From the NCBI RefSeq assembly GCF_000427965.1, contig NZ_ATZA01000003.1, positions 124,001-188,000 on the forward strand: DNA of 64,000 bases, in the 5' to 3' direction. Positions 10,161 through 60,857 of this stretch are shown here, piece by piece; the stretch's first letter is position 1, and each line of letters opens with the position of its first letter. The notes beneath the pieces are model-generated. The model saw only the letters and a list, made by a program, of their open reading frames with translations, did no database searches and was not told the origin of the DNA. Source of the stretch: Olivibacter sitiensis DSM 17696. Its GTDB lineage: Bacteria > Bacteroidota > Bacteroidia > Sphingobacteriales > Sphingobacteriaceae. Both the position numbers and the translations under genes were made by a program.

Positions 10161-10521
10161 AATTGAAAAAATTAAAAATTTAAACCTATCAACAAAGCTT
10201 GCTATACCGGTATATTGCCGTGATGACGATGCAAACATAGGACGCTAATTTTCAAATACCTATAGCCAGATACTGGTTGACGGGCATGTGACGGGCATGT
10301 ATCGGTTTATTGACGGATAAGTGAAGGCTGAGGGGAGATTAGCGACCAAAGGCCCATGCTTAAATCTACACCAAAAGCATGCCTTCTTCGTCCAATCACT
10401 GGGCGTAGGTGCCATCTGCATCGGTTTTGCAAGGCATTGAATGGCCTTCAAAACCGATACTAAAGGGATAAAAACAGGATGGATGGGCGAAATTGCCGGG
10501 CAATTGGTCAGCTATTGGCTG
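10161..10521. other. Non-coding stretch with an 11-bp tandem duplication
   Basis: About 360 bp between the HTH gene and the DUF6266 gene, both leftward. The only clear structure is TGACGGGCATG repeated twice head to tail at 10278-10299. No promoter is convincing and no gene is supported. Confidence 0.4.
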
Positions 10522-10848
10522 CTATTCCAAGCTCCAATAGATCTTGCGCAGGTGCTCCACGTCCTCGTCGCGGTAGTATTTTTTCTTGTTTACGATCTTG
10601 GCCACTTTTATGAGCCCCTTATGCTTGCAGCGCAACAAGGTGCTTTCGCTGATACCCACGCGGTTCTGCACGTATTCCGTGCTGCGATAGATGGTTTCTT
10701 TCTCTCTATGGCACAAGATGGCATGGAGCATTTCGCCCAATTGGCCCTTCACTTCCAATAGGTGGTTTATGATGACATCGTGCGAACTGGCCACGGGGCA
10801 ACTGGCGCAAGAGAGCGGAGGACTGAGCTTGTCTTGATCGTTCATCAT
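10522..10848 (-). CDS. Helix-turn-helix DNA-binding protein
   Basis: 108 residues from the first of two adjacent ATGs; an upstream ATG would add nine residues. The C-terminal half (about 55-108) reads TEYVQNRVGISESTLLRCKH, then a basic stretch, then YYRDEDVEHLRKIYW. This is the pattern of a MerR/excisionase-like winged helix in which the last helix carries a Y-x-DEDVE motif. The N-terminal third contains two Cys in CASCPV. Such proteins (helix-turn-helix domain group of Bacteroidota) often regulate mobile or phage-like genes, which fits the downstream DUF6266 and lysis-like cassette. Target sites are unknown. Confidence 0.7.
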   Translation of the reverse strand: MMNDQDKLSPPLSCASCPVASSHDVIINHLLEVKGQLGEMLHAILCHREKETIYRSTEYVQNRVGISESTLLRCKHKGLIKVAKIVNKKKYYRDEDVEHLRKIYWSLE

Positions 10849-24206: not shown

Positions 24207-24932
24207 ATGAAAGTATCCAAATACATATCATTTAGCATAGACAGGTTGCCAAAGGGTTATGTTTTTACCTATTCCGACTTCGACGCAGAAGCAAATAGCA
24301 AGGAGGCTATTATCAAAGCCCTCAACCGTTTGGCGACTTCTGGCAAAATTGTAAAGCTGTCAAAAGGCAAGTTTTACAAACCCGAAACAACGCCGTTCGG
24401 GAAGTTACAGCCCAACCAAGCCCAAATTGTAAAAGACCTTTTGGAAACAGACGGAAAAGTAACAGGCTATTTGACTGGTTACAGTATTTACAGTCAGTTG
24501 GGTTTGACAACACAAATCAGCAACACCATACAAATAGGCAAAAATGAAATTCGTCCTGCGTTCAAAAGAGAACGCTACACCATTTCATTTGTCAAACAAA
24601 AGAATATCATTACTAAAGAAAACATTCCTTTGCTTCAGCTTTTGGACGCTGTTCGTTACATCAAAAAGATTCCCGACACAACGGTTACTTCGGCCTGTAA
24701 ACGATTTTTAGCCATTCTCAAAGAATTGTCCGAAAAAGATAAAAGCACTTTGGTAAGATTGGCATTGAAATATCCACCTGCAACAAGGGCGTTATTGGGA
24801 ACATTATTAGAAGAAACAGGAAATATTGGATTGACAGAACCTTTACGAAAATCACTAAACCCGATTACGGCTTACCAACTTTCAGGGATAAATAAAATTC
24901 TGCCTGTTGCTGAAAAATGGAATATAAAATGA
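24207..24932 (+). CDS. abiEi: AbiEi-type antitoxin (DUF6088-like)
   Basis: 241 residues. The N-terminal winged helix (about 1-60: FTYSDFDAEANSKEAIIKAL then GKIVKLSKGKFY) is the DNA-binding part used for autorepression. The C-terminal domain (about 75-240) should neutralise the partner toxin. The gene overlaps the next by 16 bp, which fixes the pair as one operon. In type IV systems the antitoxin acts on the toxin's effect and on transcription rather than by complex formation. An inverted repeat and a -7 box lie just upstream. AbiE systems protect against phage and stabilise mobile DNA. Confidence 0.85.
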   Translation: MKVSKYISFSIDRLPKGYVFTYSDFDAEANSKEAIIKALNRLATSGKIVKLSKGKFYKPETTPFGKLQPNQAQIVKDLLETDGKVTGYLTGYSIYSQLGLTTQISNTIQIGKNEIRPAFKRERYTISFVKQKNIITKENIPLLQLLDAVRYIKKIPDTTVTSACKRFLAILKELSEKDKSTLVRLALKYPPATRALLGTLLEETGNIGLTEPLRKSLNPITAYQLSGINKILPVAEKWNIK

Positions 24933-25909
24933 GATTACACGAAAATAAACAGTTGTTCAGACAAGCCGTGCAATTTACCGCACAGGAAAAGGACATTCGC
25001 GAAATTTATGTAGAAAAGGATTATTGGGTAACTTATGCTTTGCATACCATTTTCAATCATAAAATTGGCGAAGAAGCCGTATTCAAAGGCGGAACGGCAC
25101 TACTAAAGTGTTATGATTTGATACAACGATTTTCAGAAGATATTGATTTGGTTGTGCTAAGACGTGAAGGCGAAAGCAACAATAAGTTGACTACGAAAAT
25201 CAGGCAAATTAGCGGTATTGTAAATACTGTTTTGCCCGAAGTGGACATACTCGAAGTAACACAGAAAATGGGAATGAACCGCAAAACGGCTCACACTTAC
25301 GCAAAGGAATTTAATGGCGATTACGGACAGGTAAGAGATGTGATAATTGTTGAAGCGACTTGGTTGGGTTATTACGAACCATACACGACAAAAGCCGTAA
25401 ATTCTTTCATTTACGAAATGATGATAAAAACAGGTCAGGAAGTATTGATAGCCGAATACGGCTTGCAACCTTTTGAAGTGAAAGTATTAGAACCTAAACG
25501 GACTTTGTGCGAAAAAATAATGAGCTTGGTAAGATTTTCCTACACCGAAAAACCGTTGGACGACTTAAAAGCAAAAATCCGCCACACTTATGACTTGCGC
25601 CAACTTTTGAAGGACAAAGAACTTTCTGATTTCTTGCATTCATCTGCGTTTGACGAAATGCTTTTAAAAGTTGCCAACGATGATGTTGTAAGTTTTAAGA
25701 ACAACAATGACTGGTTAATTCATCACCCAAACGAAGCATTGATGTTTCGTGAATTAGAAACAGTTTGGGGCGAATTACAACCAATCTACAGCGGTGATTT
25801 CAAAAAATTGGTATTTGCTGATTTTCCAAAAGACATAGACGTTTTAGCTACTTTGCAACAAATAAAACAACGATTGACTTCTGTTAAGTGGACAATAAAA
25901 GTAGACTAA
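24917..25909 (+). CDS. abiEii: AbiEii-type nucleotidyltransferase toxin
   Basis: 330 residues. The nucleotidyltransferase core shows EKDYWVTYAL (33-42), FKGGTALLK (56-64) and FSEDIDLVV (72-80) with the D-x-D metal-binding pair, all hallmarks of the AbiEii/AbiGii family. A later conserved region, EVKVLEPKRTLCEKIMSL, also fits. The family adds nucleotides to RNA such as tRNA and arrests growth until the antitoxin counters it. It appears full length with all motifs, so the module is probably active. An IS21 element begins only about 35 bp after its stop. Confidence 0.9.
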   Translation: MEYKMRLHENKQLFRQAVQFTAQEKDIREIYVEKDYWVTYALHTIFNHKIGEEAVFKGGTALLKCYDLIQRFSEDIDLVVLRREGESNNKLTTKIRQISGIVNTVLPEVDILEVTQKMGMNRKTAHTYAKEFNGDYGQVRDVIIVEATWLGYYEPYTTKAVNSFIYEMMIKTGQEVLIAEYGLQPFEVKVLEPKRTLCEKIMSLVRFSYTEKPLDDLKAKIRHTYDLRQLLKDKELSDFLHSSAFDEMLLKVANDDVVSFKNNNDWLIHHPNEALMFRELETVWGELQPIYSGDFKKLVFADFPKDIDVLATLQQIKQRLTSVKWTIKVD

Positions 25910-26033: not shown

Positions 26034-26771
26034 TTACCTTTTTTTTCTTAGACTTTCTCCTTTAAGTTCAATACGGTGGGATACATGTACAATCCTATCG
26101 AGTATGGCATCTGCAATGGTATCCTCACCGATTATATCATACCAATTTGCCACAGGTAGCTGACTGGCTATGATGGTCGCTTTTCTACCATGTCTGTCCT
26201 CAAAGATCTCCATCAGATCCAGGCGTTGCTGCTGTTCCAACCGCACGATACCAAAGTCATCCAGTATGAGAAGATCCGTTTTTGCCAGTCTGTCCATAAG
26301 TTTTTGTAGGCTTCCTTCCAGTCTTGCCATTTTCGAGCGTTGCAGCAGCTTCTGTAAGTTGTAATAAGCTACTCTTTTGCCCTGTGCACAGGCCTTCAAT
26401 CCGAAGGCAGAGGCCATAAAAGATTTACCACAGCCAGCGGCACCTGTAATGATAATGGGTTCGGCTTTTTCGATGTATCCTCCGGTAGCAAGATCGGTAA
26501 TGAGGGTGTGGTCAATGCCTCTGAGCGGATCCATATTGATTTCTTCAATGGAAGCCTGATAGCGGAATGCTGCATTCTTTTTCAGCCTGTCATAGCGCTT
26601 ACTGTCACGGTCGTCAATCTCGGACTGTAACAACATCCCCAGTCCCTGTTCAAAGCTCAGTGTGCCATGCTGGCGTGTCTCTTTCATCGCTTTCCAGTGT
26701 TGCTCCATACCGTTCAGACGAAGCATTTTTAGGTGTTTTTCAATGTTCATTTTTATTTCTGTTTTTATCAT
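26034..26771 (-). CDS. istB: IstB-like ATPase helper of element A
   Basis: 245 residues with a P-loop GAAGCGKS (about 110-117), Walker B LLILDDFG and sensor GRKATIIASQLPV, the standard IstB/DnaC-like AAA ATPase layout. IstB cooperates with the IstA transposase in target capture. It lies 12 bp after the istA C-terminal part. It should be intact, although its partner istA is split. Confidence 0.9.
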   Translation of the reverse strand: MIKTEIKMNIEKHLKMLRLNGMEQHWKAMKETRQHGTLSFEQGLGMLLQSEIDDRDSKRYDRLKKNAAFRYQASIEEINMDPLRGIDHTLITDLATGGYIEKAEPIIITGAAGCGKSFMASAFGLKACAQGKRVAYYNLQKLLQRSKMARLEGSLQKLMDRLAKTDLLILDDFGIVRLEQQQRLDLMEIFEDRHGRKATIIASQLPVANWYDIIGEDTIADAILDRIVHVSHRIELKGESLRKKR

Positions 26772-26783
26772 TTAATGGTTCTG

Positions 26784-27497
26784 TTAACTGTAATACCCCG
26801 CACCTCGGATATTGGTGTGCTGTGGCATTGGTACTTCACTTTCCTCTGGCTCCGTCCATCCGGACAATCCACTGGCCAGCATATTACCGATAGATCTGGA
26901 GCTGAACATTCTGTTTTCTACAGCAATGTTGCAGGCCTTATCGAACAATGGCCCGGCATAGGTTCGCTGTAGACGGAACAGTCCGTCACAGGTACGGTAG
27001 AGCTGCTCGGGGTAACGTCCCTTCTGCTCGAAGATCGCTGTGATAAGCTGTCCAAATGAAGGGGATATCCCGGAAGCTTTCTTCCTGTATTTTTCGGGAC
27101 TGATGTCCATGTATTCACGGTGACTGGATTCCAGGTGTTCCGGATTGGTGCTATAGGAGTTTGCACGCTGGCTACGCTGGTGTACCGCTACCTGATTGCC
27201 CTGTACAAAGATATAGACCATCCGATCGGTGTATACGACCTGTGCCTTCTGCCTGCGGTGGATATAGGGTACACTATAAGAATGGCGGTCGCGCCCCAGG
27301 TAGATATGGCCGTTGTCAGCGACCTTAAGCTCGGCATAGTGCTTCAACTCAAAGCGATCCACAGGAAGTTTGCCCAATAGATGTTTTTCACTGCTGATAA
27401 AGCGTTCCTGACGGCAGTAGCTACGGTTCTGCATTCGTGTCTGGTTGAGCTTGTCTACGCACGAGGTAATGGCTTCATTAAGCGATTCCAGGTCAAA
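26784..27497 (-). pseudogene. istA: C-terminal part of istA of element A (split by element B)
   Basis: About 237 codons of the IstA C-terminus, beginning FDLESLNEAITSCVDKLNQT at the junction and ending in NIRGAGYYS. Joined to the N-terminal part on the other side of element B, with the 3-bp duplicated TTT counted once, it gives 517 codons. That is the same length as the intact istA inside element B. The split gene cannot yield a complete transposase. Confidence 0.88.
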
Positions 27498-27582
27498 GTG
27501 GGTATTTCGGAGTGATGATGCCAGTGGTTTCGGTCAAACCGTGCCACTCAAAAGATCATACAATTATATAAAAAAGCCGTGA

Positions 27583-28320
27583 TTATTCCTTTTTCAATAT
27601 TCCTTTTCTTAGGGATTCACCTTTCAGGTCTATCCTGTGCGAGGAGTTTACTATCCGGTCCAGTATTGCATCAGCAATAGTTCCTTCACCACCGATGATT
27701 TCATACCAGGCGGATACCGGTATCTGGGAAGATATTATGGTTGATCTTTTGCCATGTCGGTCGTCTATGATATCCATCAATGTTTCCCGATCCTGGTTAT
27801 CAAAGGCCTGCAGGCCGAAGTCATCAAGTATCAACAGCTCCGCCTTGGCCAGTTTTTCCAGCTCCTTGAGATATGTCCCGTCGACTTTGCTCAATTTCAA
27901 CCGCTTAATGATCCTGGCAGTTACGGTGTAGAGTGTTTTTATTCCTGTGAGACAGGCCTGATGCCCGAGTGCCTGCGATAGATAACTTTTTCCTGTGCCG
28001 GAGGCACCGCAGATGATGATGTTTTCTTTCCGTTGCACAAAGTCAAGGGTACCAAGACGCGCAAACATGTTTTTGTCCAGATTTCTTTCGCTGGCGTAGT
28101 TTATATCGCCAAGACTGGCGCTCTGCCTAAAGCCCGCCTGTTTGAGCAACCTGTCGATCTTGTTGTTTTCGCGGTCTTCCCATTGGTGATCGGTCAGTAA
28201 TGCAAGGTATTCGTCGCATGTAAGACCTTCGAACCTGTTTTCCTTAACGTACTGTTGGTGCAACTGTGCCATGGCACCAAGACGCATGTTACGTAGTTTT
28301 TCAACTGTCTGATTGTTCAT
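27583..28320 (-). CDS. istB: IstB-like ATPase helper of element B
   Basis: 245 residues with P-loop GASGTGKS, Walker B LLILDDFG and the GKRSTIISSQIPV segment. It has the same length as the IstB of element A but is clearly divergent in sequence, so the two elements are different IS21 types rather than copies. It follows istA by 20 bp. Confidence 0.9.
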   Translation of the reverse strand: MNNQTVEKLRNMRLGAMAQLHQQYVKENRFEGLTCDEYLALLTDHQWEDRENNKIDRLLKQAGFRQSASLGDINYASERNLDKNMFARLGTLDFVQRKENIIICGASGTGKSYLSQALGHQACLTGIKTLYTVTARIIKRLKLSKVDGTYLKELEKLAKAELLILDDFGLQAFDNQDRETLMDIIDDRHGKRSTIISSQIPVSAWYEIIGGEGTIADAILDRIVNSSHRIDLKGESLRKGILKKE

Positions 28321-28340
28321 TTTCTGATTTTTGATTGTTA

Positions 28341-29894
28341 TTATTCATAAGCGGAAGCTCCGCGTATATTACTATGGAATGGTATGTGGGGCTGTATCTG
28401 TTGGGAGAACCCATCCTGCAGAGGGACTCTGTCCATATTGTTCTTCAGGATGTTCTTTATCCGCAGGTACGAACATGCATCGGTATCCAGCGCTCTTTTG
28501 CACGCATTATTGAGGCGCTGCGAACCATAGGCACGGTGCAACTGGATGATGCCCAGAGAGCGTTTGTAGCTTATTTCGGGATAGTCCTGTGATGCCAGTA
28601 TCTTTTCAATACAGGCCAAGACATATTCACCATGGGGCTGTGCTTTTTTCTTGAAGAACTCCGGGTTCCACTCCGAGTAGAACCTGTGGGTACTGCTCAG
28701 GTGATCGGTATTCGTTATGTAGCTCCCTTTTATCAGATTACGCCGGTGCAGCGCAATCCTTTCATGACTGTAGAAGACCTCAACCCGGCTTTTGGTATAG
28801 TGGATGGTGGTTTCTTTTCCAATATAACGGTATGGCACGCTATAATAGCTCTTATCAGGAGAAAAGTACACATAGCCCATCTTCTGCACCTTCGCTCTTT
28901 TATAGTCCTTAAGCTCATAGGTGCCGGCAGGTAGATCTTTGAGATACTGTCTTTCGGTGCGCTGGAACAGTTCTATACGACTGGACTCTTTCCGTTTGAA
29001 CAGCAGGTTGTTGTACCGCTCCAATAAAATGGTAATTTCCCTGTTGAGATCTTCCAATGAGAAAAAGGTCATCTCGCGCAACGGATAATAGATACGTTGA
29101 TACGCCAGGTGGACCGCATTCTCAACCAATGCCTTGTCTTGGGGAGAGTACCCCCGGGTTGGATTGATGACACAGTTGTAATGGCGCGCAAAGTCTTTAA
29201 AGCTACGGTTGATTTCGGGTTCATATCTGCTCGATCTATTGACAGCCGACTTTAGATTGTCCGATACTATAGCTTTGGGTACACCTCCATAGAAACGCAG
29301 GGCATTACTGCAGCAGGATATCATATCTGCACGTTTTTGGCTTGTGCAGGCCTCGACATAGGTATACTGACTGCATGGAAGTATGGCGACAAATACCTCA
29401 ACAGGAATAATCTCTCCGCTATGCCTATCAATGACATGTAGCTTCTTGCCTGCAAAGTCAATAAACATTTCTTCACCGGCTATGTGCTGAAGTTTCATCG
29501 AGCCCTTTTCTTTTGGGTATTTACGGCGGTAATGCTCCAGGAACTGGGTATAGCTGTAGGGTTCTGCCGCCAGCTCGACGTATTGCTGATAGTGGTATAG
29601 AAAAGTGAAGCCGGGATGATTGCGGGCTTTGTTGACCCCTTCGAAATAAAGCATGAGCTCATTGTGCCGTGCTGTGTCCAAAGTGGTATGCGATGAGAAC
29701 AGCTCGCTTAAAGCGACCATATCGAAGCCCAGAAGTTCCTTAAAGGAGTATTCGCTGCCTGCAAACAGCTGCATATACGTGTTGACCGTATTACGGGAAA
29801 TACCAAGTACGGAACCTATTTTACGGTTACTGTAGCCGTCTAGATGCAATGTAAGTATTTGTTTTAAGTCCATCGGATCAAGTGTGTTGGCCAT
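28341..29894 (-). CDS. istA: IstA-like transposase of element B
   Basis: 517 residues. The N-terminal helix-turn-helix (about 10-40: ILTLHLDGYSNRKIGSVLGI then SRNTVNTY) precedes a DDE integrase core. Core landmarks are EMFIDFAGKKLHVID (first Asp), VSDNLKSAVN (second Asp) and DKALVENAVH (Glu). The full DDE set is present, so the enzyme should be competent for cut-and-paste or replicative transposition with its IstB. Confidence 0.92.
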   Translation of the reverse strand: MANTLDPMDLKQILTLHLDGYSNRKIGSVLGISRNTVNTYMQLFAGSEYSFKELLGFDMVALSELFSSHTTLDTARHNELMLYFEGVNKARNHPGFTFLYHYQQYVELAAEPYSYTQFLEHYRRKYPKEKGSMKLQHIAGEEMFIDFAGKKLHVIDRHSGEIIPVEVFVAILPCSQYTYVEACTSQKRADMISCCSNALRFYGGVPKAIVSDNLKSAVNRSSRYEPEINRSFKDFARHYNCVINPTRGYSPQDKALVENAVHLAYQRIYYPLREMTFFSLEDLNREITILLERYNNLLFKRKESSRIELFQRTERQYLKDLPAGTYELKDYKRAKVQKMGYVYFSPDKSYYSVPYRYIGKETTIHYTKSRVEVFYSHERIALHRRNLIKGSYITNTDHLSSTHRFYSEWNPEFFKKKAQPHGEYVLACIEKILASQDYPEISYKRSLGIIQLHRAYGSQRLNNACKRALDTDACSYLRIKNILKNNMDRVPLQDGFSQQIQPHIPFHSNIRGASAYE

Positions 29895-29940
29895 ATCGCT
29901 TCAATTATTAGAGCGACAAGGTAAGTTCTTGATCTTTTAA

Positions 29941-30120
29941 AGCGGCACTAAACGAACCGTAACCCTGATGGTGTTTCGGGTATTAGAGTATCGTAATACG
30001 AATGGCACAAAACGAACCGTAAAACTCTAATCCAAATATTCTAAAATGGCACGTTTTGAACCGTAATAGATGGCATCAACTGACCGAAATAACTGGCACT
30101 AATCGATCCGTAATATCCAC
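29941..30120. repeat. Subterminal repeats of element B
   Basis: Five related units of about 20 bp beginning GGCAC or GGCAT and ending near CCGTAA or CCGAAAT lie between the istA start and the end of element B (starts near 29944, 30005, 30049, 30072 and 30106). IS21 transposases bind such multiple end repeats. The opposite end has two. Confidence 0.65.
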
Positions 30121-30963
30121 AAAGAACCTACGGTTGCGCAATCGTGCGAATACCTGTGTATAGACGATTTTGACATGGTTCTCAACAGCACTTTTGTCTC
30201 TTGGCTTTCCTGCCCGGGCAGGAACCACAACGGTATCGTAGTGATTGGCCAGATCTTCCATACTTCTGTTGATATCAGGTTCATAGCGGTCACTCTTTGT
30301 TACGGCCGACTTTAGATTATCCGGTACCAGTGCCTTGGGAACTCCGCCCAGGAACCACAGGCAATCATTCAGCGCTCCAATAAAATTAGGGATTGTTTGG
30401 CTACGTACAGCCTTTGCATAACAGTAATTGGAATAAGGAAGACAGGCGACAAATACCTCGCAATTAATAAGCTCACCTGTCTCGATATCAATATAATGCA
30501 ACTTCTTACCAGAGAAATCGATATAGAGTTTGTCTGCAGGTTCATGTTGCATTACCATGGTTCCTGAACGGGCAGAAACACTAAGTTGGGAAAAGTGATA
30601 ACAGAACTGGGAGTAACCATATCCCTGGGGATAAGATACTTTGTATTCTTCCCAAAGCAGTTTACGCGTTACGCCAACTCTTTTAAGTTCTTTCTCCAGA
30701 TGGGGCAAACGCTCTTTGAGATCCTCAAATCTGGGGTCACGATAGGCCGGATTACCTGAATGCAGCAGACCTTCCAGAACTGGATCCTCCAAAGCCAAAA
30801 GGTCGGTCATGTTCAACTTTGCCTCACCTATCTTGTAGAGGTAGGACTTTACGGTATTCTTACTTATACTGAGACTGCGGGCTATTGCTTTGATGGCATA
30901 GCCCTGTTGGTGCAGCCTGATCATCTGTTTTATCTGACTCATGGGTCTGGTTTTTCCGGCCAT
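30121..30963 (-). pseudogene. istA: N-terminal part of istA of element A (split by element B)
   Basis: 281 codons from MAGKTRPMSQIKQMIRLHQQ to ARLRNRRFF at the junction. It keeps the N-terminal helix-turn-helix (YAIKAIARSLSISKNTVKSY) and the DDE landmarks YIDFSGKKLHYID, VPDNLKSAVT and DKSAVENHV. After the junction the frame reads into element B and stops. A truncated protein of about 295 residues could be made and might bind element A ends without transposing them. Confidence 0.88.
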
Positions 30964-38489: not shown

Positions 38490-40286
38490 TTAACTCATAT
38501 TCTGTAAAGATACCATACGGTGAAAACGATTGGAACTTTGCACCAGTTCATCAAAATTCCCTTGTCCGCTGATTTTTCCATCTTCCAATAAATAGATACG
38601 ATCGGCATGCTTGATGGTAGACAAGCGGTGGGCTATGATAATCATGGTATACTCTCCTTTCAATTTATTGATACTTTCCTGAATGTAATTCTCCGTTTCC
38701 GAATCCAATGCCGAAGTGGCTTCATCCATGATCAAGATCTCCACATTTTTGTACAGTTCTCGGGCAATGGAGATCCGTTGTTTCTGCCCTCCGGAGATCA
38801 ACATGCCATTATCGCCTAATAAGGTATTTTCTTGATTTGCCATATTAGTTACAAATTCCTTCATGGCCACCTTTTCGAGGATTTGCCAAAAGCGACTGAC
38901 ATTCTCTACACTGGGCTCCGACCAAAATGTGACATTGTTAAAAACCGTATCACTAAAAATAATCGGCTCCTGGGTAATGTATCCTATTTGCTCACGATAA
39001 CTGTCAAGATGAAAGTCAAAAGGCGATTTACCATCCACCCATAGTTTGCCTGATTGGGGAACTATTAAGGCACAAATGATATTTGCCAATGTAGACTTTC
39101 CAGATCCGCTCTCACCAACAAAGGCAATGGTTTCGTTTTTGTGTAAAATCAAATCGATATTTCTTAGCACCAATTTATCACCGTATGAAAAGTTGAGCTT
39201 TTCCAATACGATTTGCGTCTGAAATGTAGGAAACGTCTCTTTATTATCTCTTTCCCGATATTGTTTCATTGATTCTGACAGATCCGCCACCGACTGCAAA
39301 GCTCCTACGTTTTGCATGAAACTTTGCCAAGAATTTTGCACGACCACCAATCCGTTTAAAGCACGGTAAAAAAGTAGTAAACTCAGCAAAATCGAGCCTA
39401 AACTAGCTCCCAAATAATTAGTTTGTAACAAAATAACCACAGCTACAATAAATATAATTACCGGCTCTCGGCTACTTGAAGTGATGGCTTGACTTTTGCC
39501 AATCTTTCTGTTAAGCCCTTCCACCTCATTTATTACATTGAGCAGCTTATTTGCATAACGGGTGAAATAACTTGTCGCTTTCAAATACTTGAAGTGATGT
39601 ATGCATTGGATCATAAACCCATTAAATAGATTCCCCCTTCTCGAAATTTCAATAGAGGACGTTTTGACGGATTCTACGATCCTGCGATAAAGAAAATTCG
39701 ACAAATAGCCCCCTACTAGGATAAATATCGCAAATTGCCAATTGGCCAAAAAAGCAAGTACAATGTAAGATATTAAAATAATCAATGATTTAGTAGTGCC
39801 AAGAAACTGAATCATTGCTTGTAGGTTTTTCCCAACCTCAGCCGTAATTGCATTTTGAATCCGACCAGCGTCTAACTTTAAAAACCCTTGATAACTTAAA
39901 GCTTGTAACTGATTTATTTGTCTTTGGCGGAGCTTAACCATATATTTTTGCCTCAAATCGATTTGCTCCATACTTAACCAATAGTTGAGCAAGCCCTTGA
40001 CTGTAAAAATGATGACCATCAAAGTCAACACACTGGAGAGTGTAACTGGAACACCTACCTGAGCAAAACTTTTTAATATGAATGCCATGCCTCCCATACT
40101 CTCACCTGAGCCAATGCTAGAGGCATCGTTCACAAACTGGAGCAGAGGAATGAACAAAGCTAAACCTATACCATCCAACAAACCCAGGATAACGGCCAAG
40201 ACCACATTGAAAATAAGCTTATTTCCCATATAGCTATAGAAATAGCTAAAATAGCCTAAGGGAGTGTGTTTTAATTGTTTTTTCAT
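38490..40286 (-). CDS. ABC exporter, fused permease-ATPase, lipid/polysaccharide flippase type
   Basis: 598 residues. Six transmembrane helices (about 25-300) precede the ATPase domain with Walker A GESGSGKST, the canonical signature ISGGQKQRISIARE, Walker B ILIMDEATSALD and the H-loop IIAHRLSTI. MsbA/PglK-type fused exporters flip lipid-linked sugars or lipids across the inner membrane. No Wzx flippase or Wzy polymerase was seen in the window, so this may be the only flippase of the locus, as in PglK-type pathways. Its start overlaps the stop of the SGNH-like gene by four bases. Confidence 0.88.
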   Translation of the reverse strand: MKKQLKHTPLGYFSYFYSYMGNKLIFNVVLAVILGLLDGIGLALFIPLLQFVNDASSIGSGESMGGMAFILKSFAQVGVPVTLSSVLTLMVIIFTVKGLLNYWLSMEQIDLRQKYMVKLRQRQINQLQALSYQGFLKLDAGRIQNAITAEVGKNLQAMIQFLGTTKSLIILISYIVLAFLANWQFAIFILVGGYLSNFLYRRIVESVKTSSIEISRRGNLFNGFMIQCIHHFKYLKATSYFTRYANKLLNVINEVEGLNRKIGKSQAITSSSREPVIIFIVAVVILLQTNYLGASLGSILLSLLLFYRALNGLVVVQNSWQSFMQNVGALQSVADLSESMKQYRERDNKETFPTFQTQIVLEKLNFSYGDKLVLRNIDLILHKNETIAFVGESGSGKSTLANIICALIVPQSGKLWVDGKSPFDFHLDSYREQIGYITQEPIIFSDTVFNNVTFWSEPSVENVSRFWQILEKVAMKEFVTNMANQENTLLGDNGMLISGGQKQRISIARELYKNVEILIMDEATSALDSETENYIQESINKLKGEYTMIIIAHRLSTIKHADRIYLLEDGKISGQGNFDELVQSSNRFHRMVSLQNMS

Positions 40287-41236
40287 TTTTTGGAGATGAT
40301 GTTGTCGATTGCATTATGCGCTGGAAGAAGCTGTAGAATTTGTTTGTTATAAACGTCAACGCCATATTGGTTCAAATGGGAATCATCCGCAAACAAACTA
40401 TCCGACCACAGTACATGCTTATTGAAATTGATATAATTGGTGTCCAACCCTGCCATTAACGAATCTATATGTTCAACATTAGTTGCTTTGGCATACCTAC
40501 CAGGCAAAACAGGGGCTTGAAATATCCTAAACGGTATGGATCTTACTGTCAGTTCACGCTTTATTCCCAATAAGGCCTCGTATTGGTTCTCATTTAACTG
40601 GTACTTATTTGCTTTTAAACTATTGTACGGCAGCGTAATCACTTTAAAAGTTTCCACATAGCCGCCCTCCACATAAGTATCAACCCCATCATATCTAGAC
40701 TGTTCCTGTATTTCTTCGCTTAATAGCTTTTTAAAAAGAGAGAAAACGAATGTATTATAAACACGAATATCGTTTACCGTCAACGCAAGGCGCATCCAAG
40801 AAAAGTCTATCGGTGCATTGGTCATTAAATCAAGCGTCGACTCCACGCCGTCCGAATTTAGCAAAACAGGATAAATATCCAACACAACCAATTTGGGTTG
40901 AAATCGATCTATGTATTTTCTTAACAGGAATAAGGTCTGAACAGGCGTCTGGGAGCTAGATCCAAGATTAAAAGATGAGAAGCCAGCCTTCTCGAAAATC
41001 CTAGGATCGTAGCCTCTATAGGCATGGGAAGAGCCTAAAAATAAAACGTCTTTTTGGGTTGTAGACTCTGCTTCTCTATATCTAGTATAAGAAAAACCAT
41101 TTCGCCTTTCAAAACCTGCAGGAAGATTTGGTTTTAAATAGGTTGGCGCCAACTTGCCAACAATCAAAAGAGACGCAATATAAATGATGCTTGCGAAGCA
41201 ACTAAACAAGGTCGAATTCAACAAAAATTTCTTCAT
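40283..41236 (-). CDS. SGNH-like protein paired with MBOAT acyltransferase (copy 1)
   Basis: 317 residues with an N-terminal membrane anchor (about 5-30) and a periplasmic domain. FLGSSHAYRGYDPRIFEKAG supplies the nucleophile Ser (GSSHA) and Asn-bearing blocks follow (FNLGSSSQ). The C-terminal DDSHLNQYG gives Asp and His, completing an SGNH-type triad. DltD/AlgX-like proteins of this type transfer acyl groups handed over by an MBOAT to a polymer outside the membrane. It starts 8 bp after the MBOAT gene, so the pair likely acetylates the polysaccharide. Confidence 0.82.
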   Translation of the reverse strand: MKKFLLNSTLFSCFASIIYIASLLIVGKLAPTYLKPNLPAGFERRNGFSYTRYREAESTTQKDVLFLGSSHAYRGYDPRIFEKAGFSSFNLGSSSQTPVQTLFLLRKYIDRFQPKLVVLDIYPVLLNSDGVESTLDLMTNAPIDFSWMRLALTVNDIRVYNTFVFSLFKKLLSEEIQEQSRYDGVDTYVEGGYVETFKVITLPYNSLKANKYQLNENQYEALLGIKRELTVRSIPFRIFQAPVLPGRYAKATNVEHIDSLMAGLDTNYINFNKHVLWSDSLFADDSHLNQYGVDVYNKQILQLLPAHNAIDNIISKK

Positions 41237-41244
41237 TTATATAC

Positions 41245-42699
41245 TCAAAACTGAAAATAGATAAATTCCGTACCTCCCGTATGCATATACATGCCGACAA
41301 TAAACAAGCATAGAGCATATAGCACCCATCTCAATACCCTTGGCCACCGGAAGCCCAGAGTCTCTATGGCATAATTGTTCTCCCGGCCAAGCCACTCAAC
41401 TAGTATGAATGGGATAAGTAATAACAAGCATAATTTACTTCCCTTCAATTCAGCATAATGAAAAGGATTGTAATCACTCTCTAAAAGAAAGATTCTACCT
41501 ATATAATCAAAAGCATGACTCAAACTCTCTGCACGGAAGAATATCCATGCAAAAGTGGCCAATGCAAAAGTAAGCAACAGTTGTCCTGTTTCTTTTAATG
41601 AAGGCAACAATCGGCCTTCTGCCACGGTTATAGTAGACTTATTTTTGCTCTTCCAGATGACCGATGGCATGATAAACAGTGCATTCAAACCTCCCCACAC
41701 TACAAAGGTCCAGTTGGCTCCGTGCCAAAAGCCGCTTACCAAGAAAATGATAAAGGTATTGCGTACCGTCATCCACAGCCCTTTCCTGCTCCCGCCCAAA
41801 GGAATATACAAGTAATCCCTAAACCAAGAGGATAGCGAGATATGCCAGCGCTTCCAAAACTCGGCAATATTGCGGGAAAAATAGGGATAGTTAAAGTTTT
41901 TCAGTAGTTCAAAGCCAAACAAGCGCGCCGTGCCCAAGGCCATATCGGTATAGCCAGCAAAGTCGCCGTAGATTTGAAATGCAAATAAGATGGCTCCCCA
42001 GACCAGTACTCCTCCCGAATACTGATCGGAGTTATTGAATATCTGATTGGCATATTCCGCACAGTTGTCGGCTATCACCACTTTCTTGATAAGGCCCCAG
42101 AGAAACTGCTTCAAGCCATCCACGGCCTGATGGTATTTGAAAACACGTGGCCGTTCTACTTGGGGCAATAAGTGCGTGGCCCGCTCTATGGGACCGGCTA
42201 CCAGCAATGGGAAGAAACTTACGAAAAGGGAATACTGCACCCAATTTGTTGTTGGTTTTATACGATCGTAATAGATATCAATCACATAGGAAAGTCCATG
42301 AAAGGTATAGAACGAAATCCCCACTGGCAAAACAATGTTTAACGTGGTAATATTGGGTCGGAAGCCAAATACCTGAATAAAATCAGCAAATGACTCAACG
42401 AAAAAGTTGTAATATTTAAAGAAACCCAGGAAACCCAGATTGATCCCCACGCTAATGGCTAGCCAGATTTTCTTCCATCTGATATTCTTTGCCTCGTAGA
42501 TCTTTAAACCTGTGAAAAAATCCAATGCGGTGGAAAAGGCCAACAGAAATAGAAAACGCCAATCCCAACAACTATAGAAATAATAACTGGCTAAAAGCAG
42601 CAAGCAATTCTGTGCCTTCAAAGACCTGTTTGTGACAAACCAATACAGAATAAAGACAATGGGAAGAAAAATCAGGAAGCTCGTAGAATTGAATAACAT
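41245..42699 (-). CDS. MBOAT-family O-acyltransferase, AlgI-like (copy 1)
   Basis: 484 residues with about ten membrane helices. Characteristic blocks are WHISLSSWFRDYLYIPLGGS and the catalytic His in SGFWHGANWTFVVWGGLNAL. The C-terminus ends EFIYFQF, an aromatic motif containing the Tyr proposed as the acyl-transfer residue in DltX-like and MBOAT C-termini. It would move an acetyl or similar acyl group from cytoplasmic donor to the outer face, then to the SGNH-like partner. A small ORF lies about 310 bp upstream on the same strand. Confidence 0.92.
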   Translation of the reverse strand: MLFNSTSFLIFLPIVFILYWFVTNRSLKAQNCLLLLASYYFYSCWDWRFLFLLAFSTALDFFTGLKIYEAKNIRWKKIWLAISVGINLGFLGFFKYYNFFVESFADFIQVFGFRPNITTLNIVLPVGISFYTFHGLSYVIDIYYDRIKPTTNWVQYSLFVSFFPLLVAGPIERATHLLPQVERPRVFKYHQAVDGLKQFLWGLIKKVVIADNCAEYANQIFNNSDQYSGGVLVWGAILFAFQIYGDFAGYTDMALGTARLFGFELLKNFNYPYFSRNIAEFWKRWHISLSSWFRDYLYIPLGGSRKGLWMTVRNTFIIFLVSGFWHGANWTFVVWGGLNALFIMPSVIWKSKNKSTITVAEGRLLPSLKETGQLLLTFALATFAWIFFRAESLSHAFDYIGRIFLLESDYNPFHYAELKGSKLCLLLLIPFILVEWLGRENNYAIETLGFRWPRVLRWVLYALCLFIVGMYMHTGGTEFIYFQF

Positions 42700-43008
42700 A
42701 GTATCAGATCACGGGGTTTAGCATGACAACAAAAGCAATTAAAAAAGAATATAACAGCAACCTCATTAACAAGCTATCAACAATACTTTCCAACAATTAC
42801 AAATAAATCAAGCATTTCCTTGCATTTTATCGGTATTCTCATCAACAAAGATAGCCGATTTTTTCAGATTCTAACATACTGCTCACATTAAATTTTTGCT
42901 ATGCCCCTACTTACCGAGGCATAACCGGACAAACGGCCGGTATTTCAACATGAATTAAAACGATAAGCAAGACACAAAATTATGCCTCGCAAAAACGGAA
43001 TTCTTGCC
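42700..43008. other. Non-coding AT-rich spacer
   Basis: About 310 bp between the MBOAT gene and the small ORF. Strongly AT-rich with no gene and no clear promoter. It may carry the start signal of the polysaccharide operon. Confidence 0.35.
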
Positions 43009-43197
43009 CTAGTTCAACAGATACAGCGACAGGCAATAAACAAGCAGGATCAAAAAAAGCAGCGAGATGCTAGCCCGGATAATTTCTGAACGTGTCATAT
43101 AGCTTTTGAGATTTTTTAAGATTAAAAGCGGTAAGGTAATGCTTTTTCTGGCCAATAGGTGCCTGACATAGATGAACGGCATGTTTTGATATGCAAA
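43007..43197. repeat. 191-bp direct repeat, copy 1
   Basis: Matches the segment at 46056-46246 at 189 of 191 positions by eye. It contains the small membrane-protein ORF. Both copies lie upstream of an MBOAT gene on the same strand, about 3.05 kb apart. Confidence 0.85.
43009..43182 (-). CDS. Small membrane protein in the MBOAT module (copy 1)
   Basis: 57 residues from the ATG shared with the second copy; a GTG 14 codons earlier would give 71 residues. A basic, Arg/Lys-rich first half (RHLLARKSITLPLLILKNLK) is followed by one C-terminal membrane helix (SLLFLILLVYCLSLYLLN). It differs from the second copy at two residues only (PL versus RF after ITL). Function is unknown. A conserved small single-helix partner recalls DltX beside DltB/DltD, but it lacks an aromatic C-terminal motif. 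Confidence 0.55.
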   Translation of the reverse strand: MPFIYVRHLLARKSITLPLLILKNLKSYMTRSEIIRASISLLFLILLVYCLSLYLLN

Positions 43198-43224
43198 TGG
43201 AGTAGCCTTTGGCAACCTAACCAA

Positions 43225-43433
43225 AACAGTTTTTTAGCCCACTCTCTCTGATATCACACCTACCAAAGATTTACATGAACTGCAAAAATTAATTTTCCTT
43301 AACTTTATTTTGTTTTTCTCACCCAGAGATCGTTTTTTTAGGAAAAGCTAAGTTTACCATGCCATCAATCGCCGTCATCAACTTAATGATAAAGGAAAGT
43401 ATGTTATAATAGTTTTTAACTCTGTCGATTAAA
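43225..43433. other. Short intergenic spacer
   Basis: About 210 bp between the small ORF and the second SGNH-like gene. AT-rich, with no recognised gene or hairpin. Confidence 0.3.
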
Positions 43434-44393
43434 TCACTCACCTCCAATCTGCTCCTTCACTATAGGCAGTAAAAATTCGCTAAATTGTTCTGCTCCCTTG
43501 CCATTCAAATGCAAAACATCACGAAAACTAGTTTTCGGAAAGTCTAATTTATTGTTTGCATCAACATAATGGCCCAAATGTGCGAAATAATTTTCACCCA
43601 TTTGGATTGCTTTTTCACGATCCAGATGAAGAAAATCTAGCACACTGGAATTAAAAGGAGACTGCACTAAAAGAAAATTTATGTTCTGTGTTTCCAAATA
43701 GTCAATTAAACAGCTAAGGGATCTCATTTGCAAATTGGTAGGCTTTTGAGCTATCAATTCCTTATTCAAACCAAATGTATTGGTAATATTTGTGGTATCT
43801 GTAAATACATAGCCTCCTTTTATGTATTCATCGCCATTGATAGTATTTCGTTGCTCTTTTTTTTCAATGATTTCAGAATGTGTCAAACCAAGACTTTTCA
43901 ACAAAAATGCGTTGATGGACATCACGCTTGTCTCTCTCCAAATTAGCTCTAAGTCATAGATGCTAGAAGAACTATTAAGCAATATATCCACCACATCTAT
44001 TGGCCTATCACGCAGCAATAACAAGGGATTGACGTCTAAGATCACTAGTCTGGGTTTCATTTGGTTCACATATCGCTTGGCCAAGATGTAAGTAGTACTC
44101 GGCTTCTGACTACTGGTGCCCAAGGTGAAGACTTTGTAACCAACAGAATCAAAAACCCGTGTATCATAATTGCGATAAGCCAAACTAGAACCAAGGATCA
44201 AAACATCTACCTGACGCGTGGTATCGGCCTCTGCCAATCGCCGGGCCGTAAATCCCGCCGACTTGTATTTTCTATTTGGTATATTGGTTTTCAAGAATTG
44301 CAATGGGGAGTAGTAGATAACAATCGTTGAAAGCAGATAGAGCGCGACAAATAACGAAACAAAGCACGCAAACCTGAAAACAAGCTTTTTCAT
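43434..44393 (-). CDS. SGNH-like protein paired with MBOAT acyltransferase (copy 2)
   Basis: 319 residues, clearly a paralogue of the first SGNH-like protein but well diverged. It has an N-terminal anchor (about 5-28), the nucleophile block LILGSSLAYRNYDTRVFDSV, TLGTSSQKPST and the C-terminal RDVLHLNGKGAEQF with Asp and His. It follows the second MBOAT by seven bases. The divergence from copy 1 suggests a different acyl group, position or acceptor sugar. Confidence 0.82.
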   Translation of the reverse strand: MKKLVFRFACFVSLFVALYLLSTIVIYYSPLQFLKTNIPNRKYKSAGFTARRLAEADTTRQVDVLILGSSLAYRNYDTRVFDSVGYKVFTLGTSSQKPSTTYILAKRYVNQMKPRLVILDVNPLLLLRDRPIDVVDILLNSSSSIYDLELIWRETSVMSINAFLLKSLGLTHSEIIEKKEQRNTINGDEYIKGGYVFTDTTNITNTFGLNKELIAQKPTNLQMRSLSCLIDYLETQNINFLLVQSPFNSSVLDFLHLDREKAIQMGENYFAHLGHYVDANNKLDFPKTSFRDVLHLNGKGAEQFSEFLLPIVKEQIGGE

Positions 44394-44400
44394 AACCTTA

Positions 44401-45843
44401 TCAAAATTGAAAATAAATAAATTCTTCCTGCTCCTGAGGCATAAATAAGGCCATCAACAACAACAAAATAAGATAAAAGCCCCACCTTAAGGAATTGGGC
44501 CACCCCATTCCTATCTTTTCTAGGATATGGCGATCGTACCTGCCAAACCACTCGATAGTCAGCATAAAGAAAATAAGAAAAGCCAAGGGAAGAGAGAAAT
44601 AGCTTGGCCATTGAACGTGTAACCTGGTAAAAATGCCGTGGAAGTAAAGGCCCGTTTTATATAGATTCTCATTCCTAAACAGGATGGAGAGAACAGATGC
44701 TGCCGTCAGATTGAGACCTATGGCTACCAGGTTTCCGATGGACGGAATAAAGTTCTTCCTCTCCGATCTGGCCATTATTTTTTTTGCGCTGCCCCTAATA
44801 AGCAAAGCTAAGATTACGAAACATGCAGCGATCAATCCCACGAAGATATAAGTCCACCGAGCGCCATGCCAAAAACCGCTTATCAAAAAAATAAGGAACA
44901 CGAAAAAATATTTCCTTGCCGTACTAGAATTCGCTTTGATAGCGGGCTTATAAATATAGTACTTAAACCAAGTGGACAACGATATATGCCACCGGCCTAC
45001 AAATTCGGCCAAATCCTTGGCAAAAAAAGGCGTGGCAAAATTCTTCATCAGTTCAATCCCCAACATTCTGGCCGTGCCCAATGCCATGTCGGAATAGCCG
45101 GAGAAGTCCGTATAGACTTGAAAAGTGAATAAAAAAGCGCCATAAATCAGCGTCATGCCCGATTGCTGTTCGGGCATGTCAAAAATACGGTTTACCAAGG
45201 GAGCACAGTTATCGGCAATGATTACTTTCTTAAATAATCCCCAGAGGAACTGCCGCATGCCATCCACCACCTTATGGTAGTTAAACGCATGCGTTGAGGT
45301 AATTTGGGGCAACAAATGCGGCGCCCGCTCGATAGGCCCAGCCAGCAGCATAGGAAAAAAACAAACAAACAAAGCGTAATTAACAAAATCTCCCGTAGCT
45401 TTAAACTTCCCAAAGTAAACATCTAACACATAGCTGAGTCCATGGAAGGTATAGAACGAAATACCTATGGGCAAGACGATATTTAATGTATTCACATGGA
45501 CTTGGAAACCCAAAGTGGTTAGCAGATCAACGAAGCTGTCGATGAAAAAATTGACATATTTGAAGTACATCAAGAAGCCCACGTTCACACATATACTTGT
45601 CCAAAGCCACCATTTCTTCCGTACCTTTGAGGAAGCATTGGCTATCAATAAGCCAGAGACAAAATCCAAAACAGTGGAAAACAAAAGCAAAAAACAGAAG
45701 CGCCAGTCCCATTGAGCGTAAAAGTAGTAACTAGCGAACAAAAGCAAAACATTGCGGCATCGTCCATTCTCCTTAGGAATGGACCAATAGATCATAAAAA
45801 TGACAAGGAAAAAAACAAGGAAGTGTATAGAATTGAACAACAT
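44401..45843 (-). CDS. MBOAT-family O-acyltransferase, AlgI-like (copy 2)
   Basis: 480 residues. It has the AlgI-like blocks WHISLSTWFKYYIYKPAIKA and the catalytic His in SGFWHGARWTYIFVG, and ends EEFIYFQF like copy 1. The PLGGSRKG block of copy 1 is replaced by KPAIKANSS, so the acyl-donor or partner loop differs. The N-terminus matches copy 1 closely (MLFNSIHFLVFFLVIFMIYW). With the SGNH-like protein and small ORF it forms a second acylation module for the same or a related polysaccharide. Confidence 0.92.
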   Translation of the reverse strand: MLFNSIHFLVFFLVIFMIYWSIPKENGRCRNVLLLFASYYFYAQWDWRFCFLLLFSTVLDFVSGLLIANASSKVRKKWWLWTSICVNVGFLMYFKYVNFFIDSFVDLLTTLGFQVHVNTLNIVLPIGISFYTFHGLSYVLDVYFGKFKATGDFVNYALFVCFFPMLLAGPIERAPHLLPQITSTHAFNYHKVVDGMRQFLWGLFKKVIIADNCAPLVNRIFDMPEQQSGMTLIYGAFLFTFQVYTDFSGYSDMALGTARMLGIELMKNFATPFFAKDLAEFVGRWHISLSTWFKYYIYKPAIKANSSTARKYFFVFLIFLISGFWHGARWTYIFVGLIAACFVILALLIRGSAKKIMARSERKNFIPSIGNLVAIGLNLTAASVLSILFRNENLYKTGLYFHGIFTRLHVQWPSYFSLPLAFLIFFMLTIEWFGRYDRHILEKIGMGWPNSLRWGFYLILLLLMALFMPQEQEEFIYFQF

Positions 45844-46055
45844 ATGTTGACTTTATTTTATTTATCAACGTCTTCTATGTCTGCCATTTCATAAAAAATA
45901 CTTCTATTAATAAGCTGATAATGCAAAAATTCAGTTAAAAAAAAATAGATTTAGTAAGTAACGTTGATATTTATTCGGTAAACAAAGTTATATGTTTTTA
46001 TTTGTTGATCCTAATACTTTTAACGCAAAAAAAGCCTCATATCCGCCGTTGAACA

Positions 46056-46246
46056 CCCTAGTTCAACAGATACAGCGACAGGCAATAAACAAGCAGGATC
46101 AAAAAAAGCAGCGAGATGCTAGCCCGGATAATTTCTGAACGTGTCATATAGCTTTTGAGATTTTTTAAGATTAAAAACCGTAAGGTAATGCTTTTTCTGG
46201 CCAATAGGTGCCTGACATAGATGAACGGCATGTTTTGATATGCAAA
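46056..46246. repeat. 191-bp direct repeat, copy 2
   Basis: Near-identical to the segment at 43007-43197; the two bases that differ lie together in the coding part of the small ORF. Sequence diverges abruptly on both sides. Confidence 0.85.
46058..46231 (-). CDS. Small membrane protein in the MBOAT module (copy 2)
   Basis: 57 residues starting MPFIYVRHLLARKSITLRFL and ending in the same hydrophobic helix as copy 1. The frame is kept between copies and the two base changes give two conservative-to-moderate substitutions. An in-frame stop lies 12 codons upstream of the ATG. Position upstream of the second MBOAT gene mirrors copy 1, so it is probably a real partner and not chance. Confidence 0.55.
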   Translation of the reverse strand: MPFIYVRHLLARKSITLRFLILKNLKSYMTRSEIIRASISLLFLILLVYCLSLYLLN

Positions 46247-46320
46247 CGACGAGCCTTTTGGCTACTTGGCGAAGTGTTGCTTGCTTTAACAATTGATTTC
46301 ACGCCAAGCTCATGGAATCA

Positions 46321-59948: not shown

Positions 59949-60857
59949 ATGGAAACAGCACGTATGGAACTAAAATATTCGGATATTAGAAAGCATTTGC
60001 ACGTAGAGAAACTCAATGGCACGGCAGAAGATGTCGCCTCCCTAACGCACTATTTGCAAAACAGTTTTCACAAAGAGGCGGAGACTTACTACCAGAGGGC
60101 AAGTGATTTCTATAATGAGTTGCAACTAAAGGTGCCAGAGCTGGAGCAGATCTCTTTGCAACAACTACTCCCACTGCGGTGGGATGTACCGTTTCCCAGA
60201 CCAAACGATTATCGTTTTACCTTCATAGACCTATTTGCTGGGATTGGAGGATTTAGGCTTGCGTTTCAAAACCTGGGAGGCAAATGTGTTTTTACCAGCG
60301 AGTGGGACGAACAGGCCAAACGTACCTATGATGCCAATTTTGGCGAAGTGCCTTTCGGAGACATTACCAAGGAATCTACCAAAAGCTTCATTCCTCATCA
60401 GTTTGATGTGCTGTGTGCTGGCTTTCCTTGCCAAGCTTTTTCCATAGCGGGCAAGCGGGGCGGTTTTGAGGACACACGGGGCACGCTGTTCTTCGATGTA
60501 GCAGAAATCATCAGGAGGCATAGGCCACGTGCTTTCTTTCTTGAAAACGTAAAAGGCCTGCGCAACCACGATAAGGGAAAGACACTGGCCACTATACTGA
60601 ACGTCTTACGCAACGAACTGGGTTATTACGTTCCGGAACCGCAAATCATCAATGCAAAAAACTTTGGCGTGCCGCAAAACAGGGAACGCATATTTATCGT
60701 GGGGTTTTCACAAGGATGAGGGGATAGAGCACTTTGACTATCCCGAGCCGACTGGCAGGCCTATAAACAGTTTGGAAACTCGGTGGCCGTACCAGCCATA
60801 CAGGCAACGGCAGAGAAAGTACTTGAAAAAATAGGACTTGTTGAGCCTTTTGCTTGA
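59949..60857 (+). pseudogene. C5-cytosine DNA methyltransferase, frameshifted and lacking its target-recognition region
   Basis: The first 256 codons contain a 90-residue leader and motifs I (FIDLFAGIGGFRLAF), IV (CAGFPCQAFSIAGKRGGFED, catalytic Cys), VI (FFLENVKGL) and VIII (PQNRERIF). The frame then breaks: a shifted frame gives HKDEGIEHFDYPEPTG, and a third frame gives motif X as QAYKQFGNSVAVPAIQATAE and ends with a stop at 60855-60857. Between DYPEPTG and QAYKQFGN the roughly 100 residues of the variable target-recognition region are missing. Two lesions make an inactive gene. It is paired with an HpaII-like endonuclease relic downstream. Confidence 0.88.

Follow-up and report, generated by a model that had tools for sequence, protein, structure and literature searches.

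A near-identical 191-bp direct repeat before two diverged MBOAT-SGNH modules in a polysaccharide locus of Olivibacter sitiensis: a probable footprint of recombination

The repeat, its edges and its copy number

A surface-polysaccharide locus of Olivibacter sitiensis DSM 17696 holds two modules, A and B, each composed of a gene for an MBOAT-family acyltransferase and a gene for an SGNH-like protein. Upstream of each gene pair stands a copy of a 191-bp segment; the two copies are almost identical, next to genes that are well diverged. How did the two copies come to be so alike? The question was addressed in a window of 64 kb (the whole stretch of DNA analysed, 64,000 nucleotides) and in the genomes of relatives. 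Copy A (46056..46246, minus strand) lies 5' of MBOAT_A and copy B (43007..43197, minus strand) lies 5' of MBOAT_B; they have the same (direct) orientation, with a start-to-start distance of 3049 bp, and a gapless pairwise alignment gives 189 equal bases out of 191. The segment closely frames a small open reading frame of 57 codons, starting 15 bp 5' of its ATG and ending 2 bp 3' of its stop. Both base differences are non-synonymous (R18P and F19L, from A to B), so that the alignment confirms the preliminary description of a repeat with 189 of 191 identical bases and two changes that alter the peptide. When the window is compared with itself, no repeat is stronger than this one, and the match extends to 43007-43213 and 46056-46262 (96.6% over 208 columns); the two remaining rows are a match of 74.5% over 153 columns in the coding parts of the MBOAT genes and one of 78.7% over 75 columns.

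The two edges of the repeat differ. The edge facing the MBOAT genes is abrupt, with 1521 of 2000 shuffles equally good over the first 20 bases, and the spacers between repeat and MBOAT gene (212 and 307 bp) are 56% identical in alignment. Past the far edge a weak similarity continues for 20-30 bp; here the shuffles that did equally well numbered 5 (20 bases), 7 (30), 17 (40) and 24 (60) out of 2000, in a modest test that was run at these four lengths on both sides. The far side thus looks as if the tract ended within an older, diverged match. Two octamers fit TAnnTTTG, the -7 consensus of the Bacteroidota: TAACTTTG (45983..45990, minus strand), 147 bp before MBOAT_A, and TATCTTTG (42846..42853, minus strand), 154 bp before MBOAT_B. 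A further one occurs at 42982, in the spacer of MBOAT_B, and an upstream TTG at the searched spacing is absent for all three. The motifs before MBOAT_A and MBOAT_B are both downstream of the repeat, which, judging from this arrangement, does not have to belong to the MBOAT leader.

The preliminary description had proposed counting the repeat genome-wide. The assembly of the strain (5.05 Mb, 110 contigs) contains two copies, both within this locus, and the segment is thus not a scattered mobile unit. A DNA search of 99 relatives with the 191-bp segment returned a single match of 39 nt at 85% (in genome G061), and phage DNA and plasmid DNA gave none. No strain or relative carrying the repeat was found in the collections searched, nor, among the relatives, a genome whose locus was empty or contained one repeat only.

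The modules and the polysaccharide locus

Both acyltransferases, MBOAT_A (44401..45843, minus strand) and MBOAT_B (41245..42699, minus strand), match PF03062 (3.1e-25 and 6.3e-28) with 89.6 and 98.5 bits, well above the gathering score of 27. MBOAT_A also matches DltB (6bug, 6.4e-21), and the two proteins score 138.4 and 154.3 bits with the NCBIfam DltB equivalog, under its cut-off of 375. Each ends in FIYFQF, a form of the FXYXXF acyl-shuttle motif. The C-terminus fits this motif in 34 of 40 compared MBOATs, A and B included, which are a subset of the matches gathered with MBOAT_A as query; five distant ones have PIYLQF and one is cut by a frame break. Among MBOATs from the class the motif is C-terminal in 12 of 12. 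Elsewhere in the O. sitiensis genome (contig C79, L020/L023, 2304-3736) an MBOAT gene is interrupted by a frame break around residue 410.

SGNH hydrolase-fold enzymes are recognised by a nucleophilic serine in a G-x-S block and a D-x-x-H motif near the C-terminus. In SGNH_A (43434..44393, minus strand), which has an N-terminal hydrophobic segment, these are G68 S69 S70, D292 and H295, and the G-S-S and D-x-x-H residues are invariant over eight aligned rows; SGNH_B (40283..41236, minus strand) aligns with these rows and is 38-43% identical to SGNH-like proteins in relatives. Neither Pfam nor NCBIfam recognises the SGNH proteins, a search of PDB profiles at E <= 0.1 was negative, and for SGNH_A no relatives were found in genome_contigs. 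With a low-confidence structure model of SGNH_A (pLDDT 50.8), the first 20 Foldseek rows (all E >= 3e-3) comprise 15 SGNH/GDSL-type hydrolases or DltD and five designed scaffolds.

From their families, each MBOAT would load an acyl group onto the tyrosine of its own FIYFQF and hand it to the SGNH enzyme, which would then acylate the surface polysaccharide of this cluster. The consulted part of PMC12148441 describes such a pathway, in which PatA self-acetylates the tyrosine of a C-terminal FXYXXF and feeds the SGNH protein PatB; according to the same part, MBOAT-SGNH pathways with FXYXXF operate without a DltX-like microprotein. The modules resemble PatA/PatB in gene order, in the hydrophobic N-terminus of the SGNH-like protein and in the FXYXXF end of the MBOAT; they differ in being two unlike modules in tandem, and in their setting among the ABC transporter and glycosyltransferase genes of a surface-polysaccharide cluster. 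From DltB/DltD/DltX (teichoic acid D-alanylation), to whose DltB the MBOATs are distantly related, they are set apart by scores below the DltB cut-off and by a nearby small ORF that lacks a C-terminal FXYXXF.

Downstream (3') of SGNH_B follow genes for an ABC transporter (38490..40286, minus strand; 75% identical to its counterpart in G031 and 64% to that in G263), MurA-like (EPSP synthase family) and MurB-like proteins, and glycosyltransferase-like proteins (one of them searched in Pfam); the locus is a surface-polysaccharide cluster. The cluster's glycosyltransferase end adjoins IS21-type IstB and transposase-like ORFs (window 26034-30963, minus strand), two of the latter being short (216 and 295 aa against 517). 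The window further contains DUF6088/AbiEi-like and AbiEii genes, a type IV toxin-antitoxin by Pfam (24207-25909, plus strand), and an ORF of 256 aa for a C5-cytosine methylase (59949-60719, plus strand) that matches positions 1-163 of the 324 of the Pfam model, its first half only.

Homologues of the ABC gene (E <= 1e-160) are present in 18 of 389 genomes of the family, that of O. sitiensis included, and the module content around them varies. MBOAT-SGNH genes lie within a few kb upstream of the ABC gene in three of these 18, namely O. sitiensis, G263 and G125. G263 has two MBOATs, two SGNH_B-like genes and two more ORFs before the ABC gene; its MBOATs are in tandem (L056, 3772-8642), with 81% DNA identity over about 1185 bp, upstream of a like ABC-MurA-MurB-glycosyltransferase cluster. 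G125 has one module and, between it and the ABC gene, a 708-bp copy of the MBOAT start at 93.8% (L088, 7710-8420), which begins at the MBOAT ATG and whose copied frame hits a stop after 236 residues; its ABC gene is 45% identical and may, at this distance, not be an orthologue. In G420 and G406, where the search had already shown an MBOAT and both sides were read, one module is found about 19 kb from the ABC gene. The other 13 genomes (among them G031, G356 and G184) have no MBOAT-SGNH genes in the 14-19 kb read, and some have MBOATs elsewhere: G034 (same contig, about 30 kb off), G179 and G239. As O. sitiensis, G263 and G125 show, tandem or partial MBOAT copies recur at such loci. Among titles and abstract beginnings on MBOAT/SGNH acylation or polysaccharide-locus conversion in Bacteroidetes or Sphingobacteriaceae, nothing concerned this locus.

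Age and ancestry of the two modules

The preliminary description had called the MBOAT and SGNH copies well diverged, and the protein identities bear this out: 232 of 478 residues (49%) for MBOAT_A and MBOAT_B, and 93 of 302 (31%) for SGNH_A and SGNH_B. In codons for conserved four-fold degenerate residues, the third base is equal in 25 of 73 cases for the MBOAT pair and in 5 of 25 for the SGNH pair, which is about chance agreement; these sites are saturated. By this measure the modules appear to predate the repeat by far. As selection at the protein level cannot hold synonymous sites at 99%, the segment must have been recently copied or converted. The gene conversion or separate copying that had been put forward at the outset is thus needed, the repeat being recent relative to the modules.

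Whether the modules are also duplicates of each other is less clear. All 38 other MBOATs compared, and all 12 from the class, score higher in bits with MBOAT_B than with MBOAT_A. MBOAT_B is 81% and 73% identical to genes of two genus-mates and, in a tree of 38 rows (two short rows omitted), is placed with these and further genes of the family in an eight-member clade (97/99). MBOAT_A falls outside that clade on a long branch, in a placement that the program flagged as unsure. A sister relationship of MBOAT_A and MBOAT_B is narrowly rejected (p-AU 0.043), while a grouping of MBOAT_A with MBOAT_B and the genes of the two genus-mates is not (p 0.084). In 399 family and 395 class genomes the nearest full-length MBOATs are 51% identical to MBOAT_A, with none above this value among the 395 class genomes; a partial MBOAT of O. 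sitiensis itself reaches 53% over 410 residues. MBOAT_A is at a similar distance from all the others and may represent either a lineage that was not sampled or a duplicate that evolved fast. Of the duplicated modules first described, two MBOAT-SGNH modules, each with its repeat, stand; that they are mutual duplicates is doubtful, given the rejected sister pairing and the outlying position of A, and a plain local duplication appears doubtful likewise.

Origin of the repeat and the role of its small ORF

Gene conversion or homologous insertion leaves short direct repeats, and the present case is like these in its near-identical tract, diverged borders and direct orientation, with nothing clearly different. 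We consider it probable that the repeat is a segment copied or converted recently, when a module was gained or rearranged, in other words an ordinary recombination footprint. The identity of the copies against the saturation of the linked coding DNA, their number of two and the variable module content in relatives support this reading. On this view recombination would have placed a copy of one 191-bp stretch on top of, or next to, the other. This may have been a short tract converted between the two module leaders; alternatively, module A would have been inserted at the 191-bp site, or brought beside it by a rearrangement, and the direct repeat is what remained. The copies differ at two bases today, and the two diverged modules stand in tandem at a polysaccharide locus that gains and loses such modules. 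The available sequences do not tell conversion apart from an insertion or rearrangement of module A. Against a mere footprint speak the close coincidence of the repeat with the ORF, which a random footprint need not show, and the rarity by chance of an ORF of 57 codons; nor did any relative display the route through a locus that is empty or has a single repeat.

Repeats of at least 50 bp and at least 90% identity were also collected as a baseline from 420,839 bases of the same genome (the window and 20 further stretches). Eleven rows were obtained, that of the 191-bp repeat included. Two tRNA-Lys genes account for one; two more fall within pairs of similar ORFs in stretch L135 (by eye, SusC- and FecR-like); L125 and L126 contribute four, all close tandem copies; and the last three come from L133, where a 370-bp pair is comparable. 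These direct repeats (10421-10788 and 12478-12847 of L133, contig C1; 97%) bracket an ORF of 333 aa, which looks like an Rpn/PD-(D/E)XK nuclease, and a small ORF has its 3' end inside the first copy. Since this pair too brackets an ORF, such an anatomy is not peculiar to the locus studied here.

One particular form of the recombination footprint is unlikely taken singly: module A may have arrived as a circle or linear piece with its own 191-bp copy and entered by a single cross-over at the resident copy, the repeats then being the two ends of a 3049-bp insert. It would explain why the direct repeats bracket exactly one module and why MBOAT_A belongs to an outlier lineage. Against it, no donor of the segment was found in relatives, genome_contigs, viral_contigs, plasmid or phage DNA, and no integrase or transposase ORF was recognised in the insert.

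That the unit is instead a functional micro-gene for a membrane peptide, whose two copies are homogenised by repeated conversion because the peptide matters, is quite unlikely. In its favour, the repeat fits the ORF (copy A, 46058..46231; copy B, 43009..43182; both minus strand, the frame of copy B being open from a TTG at 43224) almost exactly. A closed ATG ORF of at least 57 codons occurred in only 91 of 20,000 simulated sequences (191 bases, first-order random, same make-up), which makes the frame unusual. The C-terminal segment is hydrophobic (KD19 2.51), and at 57 aa the peptide falls under 60 aa, within the size and hydrophobicity of type I toxins. Possible variants are a partner of the MBOAT or a hydrophobic peptide like a type I toxin. 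Against such a gene stands its codon usage, at 0.06 bits per codon on the level of off-frame sequence (1 of 113 real in-frame blocks is as low, and 32% of 339 off-frame blocks are as high), which looks non-coding; both differences between the copies, moreover, change the protein. TAnnTTTG is absent from both strands of the repeat and from the 236-254 bp scanned upstream of it, and the RNA fold of the segment is not unusually stable (z +0.81 and +0.67). A structured RNA was discarded on the same fold values and for want of an Rfam family, the sole match, which falls outside the repeat, being to a worm snoRNA (E 0.75; 21 bits against 65).

The search for relatives of the peptide likewise speaks against a gene. 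No family was recognised in Pfam or NCBIfam, and PHROGs gave one match (E 0.19). In 300 other genomes of the family there are four weak matches only (E 0.0016-0.0074 per genome, 27-41% identity); a peptide pattern and tblastn found no relative in genome_contigs and none in viral_contigs, and a translated search of plasmids likewise gave none. Two of the weak matches (G204 and G276; 41%, E 0.006 per genome) fall in the membrane part of a histidine-kinase-domain protein. In the pairwise comparison with that one kinase, which had been picked among the best of about 300 genomes, no shuffle out of 1000 scored as high; with the kinase of O. sitiensis itself, 58 of 1000 did equally well. That the ORF is a fragment of a sensor kinase is unproven, as, scored with a profile built from 31 kinases of the family, it ranks only 33rd of 1999, the other scored sequences being its own block-shuffled versions.

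A role as DltX-like partner was likewise rejected. The peptide ends in LYLLN and lacks FXYXXF, while both MBOATs already carry, as FIYFQF, the motif that DltX supplies to DltB according to the consulted part of PMC12148441. That the unit is a micro-gene peculiar to this lineage and coding for a hydrophobic peptide, for instance a type I toxin-like stabiliser of the acyltransferase modules kept alike by conversion, is very unlikely. Duplicated type I toxin-antitoxin loci are known, as in LDR. Type I toxins are typically below 60 aa, and a duplicated locus is described (PMC11264685, PMC3919570). The zorO/zorP pair (PMC3919570, in part) likewise combines a near-identical repeat with a short hydrophobic ORF, whereas the repeat studied here has no promoter motif on either strand, a match that ends 2 bp after the stop and no relatives. 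The consulted part of PMC12390103 places type I toxin-antitoxins hitherto only in Proteobacteria, Firmicutes and Tenericutes, and proposes them for Cyanobacteria; this reported phylum range would lend the orphan peptide greater interest, should the cell produce it.

An assembly artefact, conceivable in a draft of 110 contigs, is highly improbable: the copies differ at two bases, have different flanks and lie in the interior of a contig of 204.7 kb. Least probable of all is a small MITE-like element inserted twice, which would suit the one sharp edge but is opposed by the occurrence of two copies only, at equivalent places and in one orientation, and by edges that, read by eye, show no terminal inverted repeats and no clear target duplication.

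The locus, then, probably bears the footprint of recent recombination at a place where modules for the acylation of a surface polysaccharide turn over. From the direct orientation of the repeats, a homologous exchange between the two copies would lead to deletion or duplication of module A, and inversion is not expected. The predicted deletion, with its loss of module A, could change the cell surface.
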